Shown in pieces: positions 33,413 through 39,692 of a DNA stretch of 64,000 bases. The translations under genes and the position numbers were made by a program. The notes under the pieces were generated by a model. That model searched no databases. It was not told the origin of the DNA and saw only the letters and a list, made by a program, of their open reading frames with translations. The stretch comes from Caulobacter sp. (lineage in GTDB: Bacteria > Pseudomonadota > Alphaproteobacteria > Caulobacterales > Caulobacteraceae): NCBI GenBank assembly GCA_028291265.1, contig JAQGIK010000056.1, positions 1 through 64,000 on the forward strand. Reading direction: 5' to 3'. Each line of letters opens with the position of its first letter. The stretch's first letter is position 1.

Positions 33413-33655
33413 TGTCGGTAGATCGACGATGCGTCTCCCGTTTTCGTTTTACTACCTATGGGTCACGCTCGCCTGTTCAGTTGAGTGCTTACCTGGTGAC
33501 GGTCGCTGGGGGCGGCCATCGCGAGTGAGGCGTCCCGCCACCCCAAGGGTGTTGCGGCGGGACCGACGGCGCCGCTGATCCTGTCAGCAGATTTTCGACG
33601 CCGAGATCGGGGGACCCTGGTTCCCCGGCGCGCTTGAGGCTGGTGGGGGAATACC

Positions 33656-34615
33656 ATGGCGTTGAAGGCCCTTCTGCGCGGCTGCATGGCCGCGTCCATA
33701 TTTCTGTCGGCGCCGCTCTGGCTGATGGCCACTGGCCAGGCGTTGGCGGCCCAGGCGGTTCCGCCGCCGGCCTTCACCGGGCTCAAGAAGACGGTCGCCG
33801 TCGACCTGTTCGGCGGCGCCGAGCTGACGGCCGGGCAGGTGGCCTCCGACGGCATGACCGCCATGCTGACCGACGTCCTGATCAACGATGGCCGGTTCGT
33901 CGTGGTCGAGCGCCAGTCCCTGACCAGCATCCAGACCGAACAGCAGCTGGGCCAGACCGGCGCGACGACGGCCGAAACCGCCGCCCAGTCCAATCGCCTG
34001 ATCGGCGCGCGCTTCATCGTCAAAGGAGCGATCACCAAATACAACCCGTCGGCCGGCGGGGGCGGCGTCAACGTCGGCGGTTTCGGCGGCGGCCTGCTTG
34101 GCGCGGGCGCCAGCAGCAAGACCGCGACGGTGACCATCTCCCTGCGCCTGATCGACACCACCACCGGCCAGGTTGTCTCAACGTTCAACGGCACGGGTTC
34201 GGCCAGCAGCCAGCGGGCCGACGCCGGGCTGGTGAACAGCAAGGGCGGCACCCTTGGCCTGAACGGCTTCCGCGAAACCTCCCTGGGCAAGGCCCTGGAG
34301 GACGCCATCAAGAAGGCGGTCGCCAAGATCGGGTTGGACGTCGGCAAGATTCCCTGGACCGGCCTCGTCGTCGATAACCGCGGCGGCCAGATCTACCTCA
34401 ACGCCGGCGCCGACCAGAACGTGCAGCCCGGCATGGCCTTCGCCGTCTTCCGGCAGGGCGAGACCATCACCGATCCGGGCACCGGCGCCGTGCTGGACAC
34501 CAGTTTCGAACGGGTCGGCACCGTCAGGGTCGACAGCGTCCGGGAGAAGATATCCATCGGCCAGATGGTCGATGGCCAGCCGCCGATGCGCGGCGACCTG
34601 CTGAAAGCGCAATAG
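33656..34615 (+). CDS. CsgG/HfaB-like outer-membrane secretion-family protein
   Basis: KKTVAVDLFGGAELTAGQVASDGMTAMLTDVLINDGRFVVVERQSLTSIQTEQQLGQTG; ARFIVKGAITKYNPSAGGGG; EDAIKKAVAKIG. Confidence 0.85.
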   Translation: MALKALLRGCMAASIFLSAPLWLMATGQALAAQAVPPPAFTGLKKTVAVDLFGGAELTAGQVASDGMTAMLTDVLINDGRFVVVERQSLTSIQTEQQLGQTGATTAETAAQSNRLIGARFIVKGAITKYNPSAGGGGVNVGGFGGGLLGAGASSKTATVTISLRLIDTTTGQVVSTFNGTGSASSQRADAGLVNSKGGTLGLNGFRETSLGKALEDAIKKAVAKIGLDVGKIPWTGLVVDNRGGQIYLNAGADQNVQPGMAFAVFRQGETITDPGTGAVLDTSFERVGTVRVDSVREKISIGQMVDGQPPMRGDLLKAQ

Positions 34616-34676
34616 CCGCCGTCCCAGGCGCGCCGCGCCCGACAAGCGATGGGGGTCAAGCCCCCGGGAGCCACCG

Positions 34677-37600
34677 ATGAAACTCTTCCGCATCGCCGCC
34701 ATTCTCAGCAGCGCCCTGCTGTTGCTTTCCGCCGGCGCCGCCGCCGCCCAGGGGCGGCCGCAGCCCCTTCCGCCGCAGGGCGGCTTCGACGTCGGGGTCC
34801 GGAAGACGGCGGTCGGCCCGGTGGTCCAGGGCCAGCCGGCCCGCTTCTCCATCCAGGTCAGCAACAACGGCCAGGGACAGATTCCCGGCAATTTCGGGAT
34901 CACCGTCACCGACACCCTGTCGGGGGTCTTCGGCCCGCCGATCAGCGCCAGCGGCCCCGGTTGGACCTGTACGGTGGTCGGCCAGGTGGTGACCTGCCGC
35001 TACACCCTGCCGCTCGCGCCCGGCGCCGTCGCGCCGCCGATCACCATAACCGCCACGCCGCGGGACACCGGCAGCTATTCGAACTGCGCCAGCGTGACCC
35101 TGAACGGCCCGGTCCCGGACTCCAACGCCTCCAACAACCGTAGCTGCATCGACGGCCCGATCGCCGGCGGCGGTCAGAAACGCCATGACCTGGCGCTGCG
35201 CAAGCTCGGCCCCGGCCCGGTCAAGATCGGCCAGCCGGCCACCTTCCAGCTCCTCGTCCTCAACCGCGGCCCCGCCGTCGTCAACAGCGCCAGCGGCGTC
35301 CAGGTCGTCGACACCCTGCCGGCCAACTTCTCGCCGCCGGTGACAGCCGGCGGCAGCGGCTGGTTCTGCCAGGTCTCCTACCTGACGGTTACCTGCACCT
35401 ACAACGGCCCGCCGGTCGCGGCGGGAGGCTCGCTGCCGCCCATCGCCGTGACCGCCACGGTCCGCAGCGAAGGGGCCTGGCGCAACTGCGCCACCGTCCG
35501 CCTGCGGGTGGGTGAGGACACCAACCCCGGCGACAACACCGGTTGCGTCGACGGCGTGGCCGGCGGCGGCGGCAACGGCCGCATCCCCGACCTGTCGATC
35601 CGCAAGACCGGCCCCGGCCCGGTGACGGTCGGTCAGCCAGTCAGCTTCGGCCTGCAGGTGACCAACAACGGTCCCGGCCCGGTCAGCGGGGCCAGCGGCA
35701 TCCAGGTGGTCGACCAGCTGCCGGCCGGCTTCACCGGCCCGGTCAGCGCCTCCGGCGCCGGCTGGACCTGCGTGGTGTCCGGCTCGGGACCCTTCCTGGT
35801 CACCTGCAACTACGTCGGCGGGCCGTTCCCGGCCGGCGCCCAGCTGCCGCTGATCACCGTCAGCGCCACGGCGGGCGGGCAGGGCGGTTACGTCAACTGC
35901 GCCAACGTCAAGCTGGTGCGCGGCCCTGACGCCGACCCGAAGAACGACCGCAGCTGTGTCGAGGGCCCGATCAAGCCCAAAGCCGGCAAGATCGACGTCG
36001 GGATCAAGAAGTCCGGTCCCGGGGTCGTGCCGTACGGCCAGACGGGGACCTTCACCCTCAACCCCTACAACACCGGCCCAGCGACGATCACCAGCGCCAT
36101 GGGCCTGGTGGTCACCGATACCCTGCCGATCAACTTCGGCGGCCCGGTGTCGGCCAACGGCTCGCCCGACTGGAACTGCTCCGTGTCTGGCTCCGGCAAC
36201 GGCAGCATGCCGCCCTTCACCGTGACCTGCGTCTACGTCGGCAACAACGCCGCGCCGGGGTCCTCGATGGGCCAGATCACCATCACCGCCGTCGGCCGGG
36301 GCTACGGGACCTGGGACAACTGCGCCAACATCGTCTTCCGGCAACCGGCCGGCAATCTCAGCCCGGTCCCGGACGTCCGGCCGGCGGACAACACCAGCTG
36401 CGTCAAGGGCGAGGTGGTCAAGGCCAAGAAATACGACGTCCGTATCCAGAAGAAGGGCCCCGGCCCGGTCATCGTCGGCCAGACCGCGACCTTCACCCTG
36501 TATCCCGCCAACGTCGGTCCGACGCCGGTCGACAGCAACAGCGGCGTCGTCGTCACCGACAGCCTGCCGGCCCCGCCGTTCAGCGCGCCGGTCACCGTCA
36601 ACGGCGGCTCCGACTGGGACTGCTCGGCGACCGTCGGCCTGAACGTCAGTTGCCTCTACCGCGGTCCGGCCGTCGGCGCGGGCGCCGCCCTGCCGACCAT
36701 CACCATCGACGTCCTGGTCCGTAAACCCGGTAGCTACGTCAACTGCGCCGTGATCGCCCTGACCAAGGTCGGTCCCGACGCCAATCCCCAGGACAACCGC
36801 TCCTGCGTCGAGGGCCCCTCGAGCGAGCAGAAGAAGGTCGATGTCGGGATCAAGAAGTCCGGTCCCGGGGTCGTGCCGTACGGCCAGACGGGGACCTTCA
36901 CCCTCAACCCTTACAACACCGGCCCGGCGACGATCACCAGCACCATGGGCCTGGTGGTCACCGACACCCTGCCGGTCAATTTCGGCGGCCCGGTAACGGT
37001 CAACGGTTCGCCCGACTGGGGCTGCACCGTGGCCGGGTCCGGTAACGGCAGCATGCCGCCCTTCACCGTGACCTGCGTCTACGTCGGCAACGGCGCGACG
37101 CCCGGGTCTTCGATGAGCCCGATCACCATCACCGCCGTCGGGCGGGGCTACGGGACCTGGAGCAACTGCGCCAACATCGTCTTCAAGCAGCCGGCCGGCA
37201 ATCTCAGCACGGTTCCGGACGTCGCCCCGGCCGACAACCGCTCCTGCATCAAGGGCGAGGTGGTCAAGGCCGAGAAGTACGACGTCAAGATCGACAAGAA
37301 GCTGCAGGGGCCGTTGGTCGTCGGCGGCCTGGCGGGCTTCACCCTCTATCCGACCAACGTCGGGCCCGCGACCATCGACATGAACAGCGGCGTCTACGTC
37401 ACCGACACCCTGCAGTCGCCGCCGTTCGGCACGCCGGTGACCTGGGCGGCCTCCAGCGCCTGGTGGGACTGTTCCGCCAGCAGCGGCCTCACCGTCAGTT
37501 GCCACTACATCGGCCCGGCCAGGGCGGCCGGGGTCATCCTGCCGCCGATCAGCATCACCTCGCCGGTGATCAAGGGCGGCGGCTTCGTCAACTGCGCCGA

Positions 37601-39692
37601 GATCGTCATCAAGGCGGGGACCGACATCAATCCCAAGGACAACCGCAGCTGCGTCGAAGGCCCGATCGGCGGCAAGTACAACCTCTCGCTCGGCAAGCGG
37701 GCCCTGGGCGCGCCCTGGCCGCATCCGGGCGGTGGGGTCTACCGCCTGGTGGTCGTCAACAACGGTCCGACGGCCATTCCCGCCGGCACGGTGCTGACCA
37801 TAACCGATCCGTTGCCGGCCGGCATGAAATTCACCGGTTCGGTCGGTCCCTGGACCTGCACGCCGGTCGGGGCCATCGGTCCCGCCAGCATCACCTGCAC
37901 CTACACCCTGCCCGGCGCCCTCTCGCCGACCGCCAATATCGGCGTCGACCTCAACATGGTCTTCGTCGGCGGCCCGACCGACGGCTACACCAACTGCGCG
38001 GTGCTGAGCGCCGGCGTCACCGAGACGACGCTGGAGGACAACAAGGGCTGCGACAGCTTCAAGCCCAAGGTGTTCGACCTGTTGCTCAACAAGACCGCCA
38101 CCGCGAGTCCCTGGCCCTATCCGGGCGGCGGTGTCTTCACCCTCACCGTCACCAACAACGGGCCCTCCTTCGTGCCCAATGGCGACATCATCAAGATCGT
38201 CGACCAGATCCCGGCCGGCATGAAGGTCACCGTCGTCTCGACCGGCTGGAACTGTACGCCGGCCCTGCCGGTGACCGGTCCGGTCGCCCTGTCCTGCACC
38301 CGCACCCTGACCGCCAACCTGGCGGCCGGGGCCAGCACCGCGCTGCAACTGACCACCACCCTGACCGCCCCGCAGCAGGGGAGCTACAACAACTGCGCCC
38401 AGGCCGCGGCCCTGATGCCCACCGGCCAGCCGGAGGCGGAGGCCAACTTCAACAACAACCAGGACTGCGAGGTCGTGACGACCCGGCTTCCGCAGGCTCC
38501 GTCGCTGTCGGTCAGCAAGGCGCTGGCCGGTCCCTGCCAGAACAACAACGGCACGGTGATCTGCACCTTCGTCTTCACCGTCACCAACAACGGGACGGGC
38601 GCCTACAGCGGCACGGTCAGCCTGGCCGACACCATCGCCTACGCCCCGGCCGCGGGGACGGTGGTCAGCAATGTCACGGGCGGCTGGAGCTGCGTCGCCG
38701 GCGCGCCCTCCAACTGCCAGGGCCCGGTCAGCCTGCCCGGCGGGACGAGCACCAGCTTCAGCGCCACCTTCACCGTCAACGGGCCGGTGATCCCGACCCA
38801 GAACTGCGTCCAGCTGACCGCCCCGACGACCAATCCGCTGCTCGGCCCGTCCTGTGTTCCCATCGTCTTCCAGGCCTCCACGCCGCCGGTGCTGGATATC
38901 GAGAAGGTCATGGAGCAGGACTGCAACGGCAGCTACCCGAACATCCACTGCAAGTTCGTCATCCGCATCTTCAACCTCGGCCCCGGCGGCTACTTCGGAC
39001 CGCTGACCTTCACCGACCTGGTGACCTCGTTCGGCAACGTCGCCGGCGGCGTCAGCCTGGTGGCGCCCTATCCGCCGGGCTGGACCTGCACCGGCGTCCA
39101 GCCGATGACCTGCACCAACCCGTCGGTCGGCATCGCCCAGGGCGCCCATGCGACCATCCCGATCTGGATGGACATCAACAGCGCGATCCCGGTCGACCTG
39201 AACTGCGCCACCCTGACCGGACCGCAGCAGCAGCCGGCGCCCAAATCCTGTGTCGGCCTGCATGCGCCGCAGATCGCCATCCTGCTCGACAGCAACTTCA
39301 TGCCCGACTACGCCAACCCGAGCCTGCATCGGTACGAGTTGAGCTACTACGTCAACCCGACCCCGGACTTCGTCCCCGGCAACCGCGTCTTCATCAACGG
39401 TACCCTGACCTCCAACTACGTCCCCACCAACAGCAACCCCACCTTCTCGGCGATGGTCATGGGGAACAGTCCGACCTGGACCTGCACCAACACGGCCTGG
39501 TCGGGGTTCAGTTGCTACTACGACATCCCGGCCAGCTACACCGGCGGGTCCGTCGTCATGAAGGTCTACACGACCTACCAGGCGGCGGCGGTCGGGTCGT
39601 CGCTCCAGTACACCGGCACGGCGACGGTGCAGGGGAACACCGATCCGCCCCCGGCCGATGAAACCCGCATCGTCAACGGCACGCTGTTCTAA
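34677..39692 (+). CDS. Very large secreted multi-repeat (DUF11-like) Cys-patterned surface protein, 1671 aa
   Basis: Signal peptide MKLFRIAAILSSALLLLSAGAAAAQG; about 12 beta-sandwich-like units with VGQxxxFxLxxxNxGP, VTDTLP, W-C, NCA and NxSCVEGP motifs. Confidence 0.88.
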   Translation: MKLFRIAAILSSALLLLSAGAAAAQGRPQPLPPQGGFDVGVRKTAVGPVVQGQPARFSIQVSNNGQGQIPGNFGITVTDTLSGVFGPPISASGPGWTCTVVGQVVTCRYTLPLAPGAVAPPITITATPRDTGSYSNCASVTLNGPVPDSNASNNRSCIDGPIAGGGQKRHDLALRKLGPGPVKIGQPATFQLLVLNRGPAVVNSASGVQVVDTLPANFSPPVTAGGSGWFCQVSYLTVTCTYNGPPVAAGGSLPPIAVTATVRSEGAWRNCATVRLRVGEDTNPGDNTGCVDGVAGGGGNGRIPDLSIRKTGPGPVTVGQPVSFGLQVTNNGPGPVSGASGIQVVDQLPAGFTGPVSASGAGWTCVVSGSGPFLVTCNYVGGPFPAGAQLPLITVSATAGGQGGYVNCANVKLVRGPDADPKNDRSCVEGPIKPKAGKIDVGIKKSGPGVVPYGQTGTFTLNPYNTGPATITSAMGLVVTDTLPINFGGPVSANGSPDWNCSVSGSGNGSMPPFTVTCVYVGNNAAPGSSMGQITITAVGRGYGTWDNCANIVFRQPAGNLSPVPDVRPADNTSCVKGEVVKAKKYDVRIQKKGPGPVIVGQTATFTLYPANVGPTPVDSNSGVVVTDSLPAPPFSAPVTVNGGSDWDCSATVGLNVSCLYRGPAVGAGAALPTITIDVLVRKPGSYVNCAVIALTKVGPDANPQDNRSCVEGPSSEQKKVDVGIKKSGPGVVPYGQTGTFTLNPYNTGPATITSTMGLVVTDTLPVNFGGPVTVNGSPDWGCTVAGSGNGSMPPFTVTCVYVGNGATPGSSMSPITITAVGRGYGTWSNCANIVFKQPAGNLSTVPDVAPADNRSCIKGEVVKAEKYDVKIDKKLQGPLVVGGLAGFTLYPTNVGPATIDMNSGVYVTDTLQSPPFGTPVTWAASSAWWDCSASSGLTVSCHYIGPARAAGVILPPISITSPVIKGGGFVNCAEIVIKAGTDINPKDNRSCVEGPIGGKYNLSLGKRALGAPWPHPGGGVYRLVVVNNGPTAIPAGTVLTITDPLPAGMKFTGSVGPWTCTPVGAIGPASITCTYTLPGALSPTANIGVDLNMVFVGGPTDGYTNCAVLSAGVTETTLEDNKGCDSFKPKVFDLLLNKTATASPWPYPGGGVFTLTVTNNGPSFVPNGDIIKIVDQIPAGMKVTVVSTGWNCTPALPVTGPVALSCTRTLTANLAAGASTALQLTTTLTAPQQGSYNNCAQAAALMPTGQPEAEANFNNNQDCEVVTTRLPQAPSLSVSKALAGPCQNNNGTVICTFVFTVTNNGTGAYSGTVSLADTIAYAPAAGTVVSNVTGGWSCVAGAPSNCQGPVSLPGGTSTSFSATFTVNGPVIPTQNCVQLTAPTTNPLLGPSCVPIVFQASTPPVLDIEKVMEQDCNGSYPNIHCKFVIRIFNLGPGGYFGPLTFTDLVTSFGNVAGGVSLVAPYPPGWTCTGVQPMTCTNPSVGIAQGAHATIPIWMDINSAIPVDLNCATLTGPQQQPAPKSCVGLHAPQIAILLDSNFMPDYANPSLHRYELSYYVNPTPDFVPGNRVFINGTLTSNYVPTNSNPTFSAMVMGNSPTWTCTNTAWSGFSCYYDIPASYTGGSVVMKVYTTYQAAAVGSSLQYTGTATVQGNTDPPPADETRIVNGTLF
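36000..37690 (+). repeat. In-frame tandem duplication of a two-domain unit (period 846 bp, 282 aa) inside the DUF11-like gene
   Basis: GGGATCAAGAAGTCCGGTCCCGGGGTCGTGCCGTACGGCCAGACGGGGACCTTCACCCTCAACCC occurs at 36000 and 36846; following domains also align. Confidence 0.85.

Follow-up and report, generated by a model that had tools for sequence, protein, structure and literature searches.

The best-known members of the CsgG family are the curli channel and HfaB of the holdfast anchor. A narrow curli-type pore needs an unfolded client, and disulfides are made in the periplasm. In Caulobacteraceae, the CsgG relative HfaB has been proposed to export HfaA and HfaD (PMC6707917). In the Vibrio flagellum, FlgT helps to form the periplasmic H ring (PMC7693769). 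DUF11 domains, recently renamed CLIPPER, have been described mainly as stalk domains of fibrillar surface adhesins with Lys/Asp/Asn isopeptides; a crystal structure shows the Lys-Asn isopeptide with a putative Asp catalyst (PMC12617251).

We analysed a window of 64,000 nt from Caulobacter sp. (Caulobacteraceae; GCA_028291265.1, contig JAQGIK010000056.1, positions 1-64,000, forward strand), in which a csgG-like gene is followed in the same direction, after a gap of 61 bp, by a gene for a DUF11 protein. The locus resembles each of the described systems in part. As for HfaB, a CsgG-family gene of a Caulobacteraceae genome lies beside that of an exported partner; HfaB, however, has a lipobox and the partners HfaA and HfaD, whereas in the window the CsgG-family protein has an additional FlgT_C domain and its partner is a DUF11 protein. 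It belongs to the same Pfam family as the curli channel CsgG but differs in the missing lipobox, constriction loop and hydrophobic TM2, in a partner that is not curlin-like and in a genome without CsgE and CsgF. With FlgT it shares a CsgG/TolB-like middle domain followed by FlgT_C, and FlgT is its best full-length structural match, but its gene pairs with a DUF11 gene and no flagellar genes were recognised at the locus. The repeat protein has the tandem Ig-like DUF11 stalk, the K/D/N isopeptide triads and, by prediction, the disulfides of CLIPPER adhesins. Unlike these, it has no recognised adhesive or sorting domain, is tied to a CsgG/FlgT-like gene and is predicted to form two disulfides in each of its regular units.

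The gene pair and the CsgG-like protein

The initial annotation had described a CsgG/HfaB-like reading frame followed after about 60 bp by a 1671-aa repeat frame. Both are present (Table 1) and are real genes, with a GC3 of coding type (0.91 for the csgG-like gene, 0.94 for the DUF11 gene). A promoter scan found none, and terminator-like matches were uninformative. Both expected families were matched in Pfam: PF03783 scored 118 bits against a curated cut-off of 20.8, and DUF11 reached 235.6 bits (E 1.1e-70). The FlgT_C match of the CsgG-like protein lies just above its Pfam cut-off (27.5 bits against 27, E 4.4e-6). Pfam reported no FlgT_M for this protein; the domain is present in two distant CsgG-like members (L010 and L011).

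Table 1. Features of the csgG-like/DUF11 gene pair in window coordinates
Feature	Position	Strand	Remarks
Shine-Dalgarno-like GGTGGGGG 5' of csgG-like gene	33642..33649	+	from the sequence
csgG-like gene	33656..34615	+	319 aa; Sec-type signal peptide without lipobox, CsgG/TolB-N-like core, FlgT_C domain
CsgG family domain, aa 61-230	33836..34345	+	PF03783, E 6.5e-34
FlgT_C domain, aa 244-309	34385..34582	+	PF16538; related by sequence to TsaP-type LysM proteins
Shine-Dalgarno-like GGGAG before DUF11 gene	34666..34670	+	inside the 61-bp gap; from the sequence
DUF11 (CLIPPER) fibre gene	34677..39692	+	1671 aa
Sec-type signal peptide of DUF11 protein, ~aa 1-25	34677..34751	+	AAAAQG; read by eye
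Unit 1	34782..35180	+	four Cys, K/D/N triad
Unit 2	35181..35582	+	four Cys, K/D/N triad
Unit 3	35583..35984	+	four Cys, K/D/N triad; modelled, mean pLDDT 96
Unit 4	35985..36428	+	against unit 6: 86% protein, 89% DNA identity
Unit 5	36429..36830	+	against unit 7: 59% protein, 76% DNA identity
Unit 6	36831..37274	+	four Cys, K/D/N triad
Unit 7	37275..37676	+	four Cys, K/D/N triad
Unit 8	37677..38072	+	four Cys, K/D/N triad
Unit 9	38073..38492	+	four Cys, K/D/N triad
Unit 10, variant	38493..38885	+	six Cys; boundaries approximate
Unit 11, variant	38886..39263	+	six Cys; boundaries approximate; recognisable counterpart in G180 and G189
Unit 12, C-terminal	39264..39689	+	two Cys; boundaries approximate

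An AlphaFold2 monomer model of the CsgG-like protein (mean pLDDT 75.6) was confident in the CsgG core and the C-terminal regions and of low confidence in both hairpin regions. Its top Foldseek match was FlgT (3w1e, E 1.7e-15), and a chain of the LPHT ring matched over ~298 columns (8z5n, E 7.5e-15); the CsgG pre-pore (4uv2, E 3e-8) and PelC followed. A profile search against solved CsgG chains gave an E of 4e-14.

Several hallmarks of the curli channel are missing. The signal peptide has no lipobox, whereas SGC and TGC are present in CsgG of E. coli and in the HfaB of the window genome. Both the window protein and its relatives in Caulobacteraceae lack some 10 residues at the constriction loop (the YNxxxxF segment of CsgG). 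The two membrane hairpins of CsgG have counterpart segments of similar length, in the low-confidence part of the model; the residues ILVMFWY make up 17-18% of the TM2 segment, compared to 37-38% in CsgG and HfaB. Searches of the genome (94% complete) for CsgE and CsgF gave no match, with a positive E. coli control. Since these features are lacking and FlgT is the best structural match, we regard the protein as a member of the CsgG family whose mode of action is more likely that of a FlgT ring than that of the curli pore.

A probable fibre protein of cysteine-bearing, predicted Ig-like units

The initial annotation had counted about 12 units with about four Cys each. This describes the DUF11 protein well: units of 132-148 aa with four Cys each repeat regularly nine times and give way to three variant units at the C-terminal end, and all of its 50 Cys lie within the mature part. 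Apart from DUF11, Pfam reported a borderline CARDB overlap and no adhesive or surface-sorting domain. We recognised no outer-membrane anchor, exporter signature or sorting signal, and a PDB sequence search with the 1671-aa protein gave no match. Unit 12 has a counterpart in two same-genus genomes (G180 and G189), is missing from the UBA5005 and Phenylobacterium J367 proteins (L004 and L008, see below) and shows no membrane or sorting anchor. The identities between units 4 and 6 and between units 5 and 7 suggest that units 4-7 arose by duplication of a two-unit block.

Two-unit alignments were dropped for folding, as MAFFT shifted the repeats, and a single unit (unit 3) was folded instead. The model is an Ig-like sandwich of nine strands and resembles CARDB and the Ig-like domains of integrins and adhesins. 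In it, C63 and C75 face each other within one hairpin, and C106 and C125 lie on the next antiparallel pair; from this strand register two disulfides per regular unit are likely. Across 15 units of three genera (window, L004, L008) only N28, W61 and the four Cys are invariant. Together with the modelled register, this invariance makes the proposed disulfide stapling very probable.

Judged by alignment position, none of the nine regular units lacks any residue of the Lys-Asp-Asn triad (K8, D44 and N105), and unit 10 has all three as well, so that most units of the window protein carry a putative isopeptide triad. In L004 neither unit retains the acceptor Asn, and in L008 only one of four does. 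To judge from these sequences, the universal feature of the DUF11 units of the pair is thus the Cys pattern only and not the isopeptide triad.

Conservation of the pair and other CsgG-like loci

The CsgG-like gene is patchily distributed: at strict thresholds it occurs in 7 of 75 same-genus and 23 of 390 family genomes, and relatives of 31-40% identity are found in Ramlibacter, Nitrospirota, Methylomirabilota, Verrucomicrobiota and others. In a maximum-likelihood tree the window protein groups with four others (support 100/99); this clade of five spans three Caulobacteraceae genera and comprises the window, UBA5005 (L004), Phenylobacterium J367 (L008) and the same-genus genomes G180 and G189. 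All five members keep the two-gene order, with the DUF11 gene directly downstream; the spacing, cleanly measurable in four of them, ranges from -4 to +61 bp. The number of DUF11 units varies, from 2 (L004) and 4 (L008) over ~8 (G180 and G189) to 12 in the window.

When the surroundings of the pair were compared between the window, L004, L008 and the setting of G180 and G189 (L090/L091), we found only the two pair genes at matching places. Weak matches (28-29%) of distant window genes in other loci did not lie at corresponding places, and local synteny was common to the G180 and G189 loci. An ECF sigma gene, 63% identical between the two, lies near the pair in L004 (L004:9128-9688) and L008 (L008:15986-16522) at differing distances, and in L004 a zinc-finger (anti-sigma-like) gene directly follows the DUF11 gene. 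G180 and G189 encode near the pair an 839-aa secreted multidomain protein (L090:14690-17209, L091:15727-18246), the G180 copy having SdrD_B and DUF5979 domains.

With an E of about 1e-18 as the limit, four-Cys DUF11 units turn up in exactly 7 of the 390 family genomes, namely the clade's five, G298 and G188. All seven belong to the 23 that carry the CsgG-like gene, and the two genes lie on the same strand within ~4 kb; in G298 and G188 the DUF11 gene is downstream by ~0.7 kb and ~4 kb, respectively. The hypergeometric chance of this co-occurrence is 1e-9 if independence is assumed and phylogeny ignored. For DUF11 of any kind the co-occurrence is far weaker (p 9e-4), and elsewhere in the family the DUF11 proteins that were recovered and readable have at most part of the Cys pattern. 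Retention across four genomic settings and the co-occurrence of the four-Cys units both speak for the dedicated partnership that had been proposed.

At sister loci the CsgG-like gene is often followed by a gene for another small secreted protein. A hand count gave ~21 of 28 secreted downstream partners in the alphaproteobacterial clade; as the signal-peptide heuristic used flags ~48% of background downstream genes, this count is only suggestive.

Some further features of CsgG-like loci were observed. Four sister proteins (L005:1761-2699, L007:9977-10912, L066 and L024) carry twin-arginine-like signals (FSRRSAL, FTRRTAL, PNRRLVL, LNRRRML), unusual for an outer-membrane barrel. Mutually similar regulator-like proteins are encoded beside four loci (L092:8708-9844, L095:4420-5697, L096:10087-11304, L008:16701-17813), the L092 copy alone having a weak, below cut-off LuxR (GerE) match. 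A small secreted protein of ~131-143 aa with an NTVRV...SL motif recurs near CsgG-like genes (L062, L094:4924-5328, L096:5935-6366, L008:17862-18257) and none of the three copies searched (L062, L096, L008) matched a Pfam family. The window genome has a third CsgG-family gene (L003:1273-2391 on contig C79), whose 372-aa product appears SH3-like in its C-terminal region by eye.

Possible roles of the pair

With even confidence, we propose that the pair is a dedicated envelope module in which a periplasmic or outer-membrane ring docks a dedicated stapled fibre. The DUF11 protein would be exported by Sec and fold to a rod of 12 Ig-like CLIPPER domains, held by two disulfides per regular unit and by Lys-Asp-Asn isopeptide triads in most units. 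The ring would then dock, position or present this rod as a stiff surface fibre or spacer. Assembly of the ring, its interaction with the fibre, the surface location and any adhesive role are what we infer from the data above; for the fibre, surface exposure would follow the habit of its family.

A broader alternative, which we consider possible but doubtful, is a soluble ring of FlgT/CsgG fold that lacks the curli constriction, holds or passes the folded stapled fibre and serves as a general platform for interchangeable clients, its relatives having replaced the fibre by other small secreted proteins. On the favoured reading too, the ring may be a platform with exchangeable clients, as other small secreted proteins often follow the CsgG-like gene in sister loci. 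A narrow curli-type pore fits poorly with a client bonded by disulfides and isopeptides, and a ring without constriction, or a docking collar, fits such a client better.

True CsgG-like secretion, in which an outer-membrane beta-barrel pore threads the DUF11 protein out and folding takes place at the surface, is unlikely in our estimate. It would agree with the CsgG family match (E 6.5e-34), the two hairpin segments of similar length, the conserved pairing with a secreted protein and the export function proposed for HfaB (PMC6707917). Against it stand the absent lipobox and constriction-loop residues, the less hydrophobic TM2, the lack of CsgE and CsgF in the genome, the periplasmic ring protein FlgT as the nearest fold and a client expected to gain its disulfides in the periplasm. 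Of the dedicated CsgG client first suggested, the conserved partnership stands, while the secretion pore is weakened by these missing elements and the FlgT-like fold.

We also think it improbable that the system is wholly periplasmic, with ring and stapled rods acting as a scaffold or spacer, e.g. in the stalk, that is never exposed at the surface. The FlgT-like ring fold, the formation of disulfides in the periplasm, a unit number that varies from 2 to 12 and a fibre without outer-membrane anchor or exporter signature would all suit such a scaffold. However, DUF11 proteins are mainly described as stalks of surface adhesins (PMC12617251), and a chain of 12 units would seem longer than the normal width of the periplasm.

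That the genes are neighbours through inheritance alone, without joint function, would be compatible with mere adjacency and with evidence that is all genomic, but the same pair recurs in four differing settings and four-Cys units occur exclusively with the CsgG-like gene, which leaves this explanation very little room.

Least tenable is a holdfast anchor that replaces or supplements HfaABD. The pair lies ~2 kb from hfsE in the window genome, and the hfs cluster recognised there by the initial annotation is backed by fitting domains (Bac_transf, Polysacc_synt, GT2, deacetylase, Wzz, Wzy_C). hfaA, hfaB and hfaD are indeed absent from the window, but the same genome holds all three, complete and in order, on contig C152 (L002:129-2719); hfaA and hfaD were named there by position and sequence character, Pfam naming only the CsgG domain of HfaB. 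This HfaB carries an LTGC lipobox and is only distantly similar to the window protein. At the other four pair loci no hfs genes lie nearby, and only 7 of 75 same-genus genomes have the CsgG-like gene at all. We thus reject holdfast anchoring by the pair, which is separate from the holdfast anchor.

The literature searched, whose coverage left out most subscription papers, contained no mention of CsgG and DUF11 together and no described counterpart, in keeping with the candidate undescribed system first put forward. The components are known, and their conserved combination appears undescribed. As the two genes are kept together in three genera while their flanks match little, the comparison of loci points to a surface device, so far undescribed, apart from the holdfast glue. 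The envelope module that we favour provides a concrete two-gene test of whether rings of the CsgG fold are used to dock folded clients as well, and it suggests how Gram-negative bacteria could handle DUF11 fibres without sorting domains.
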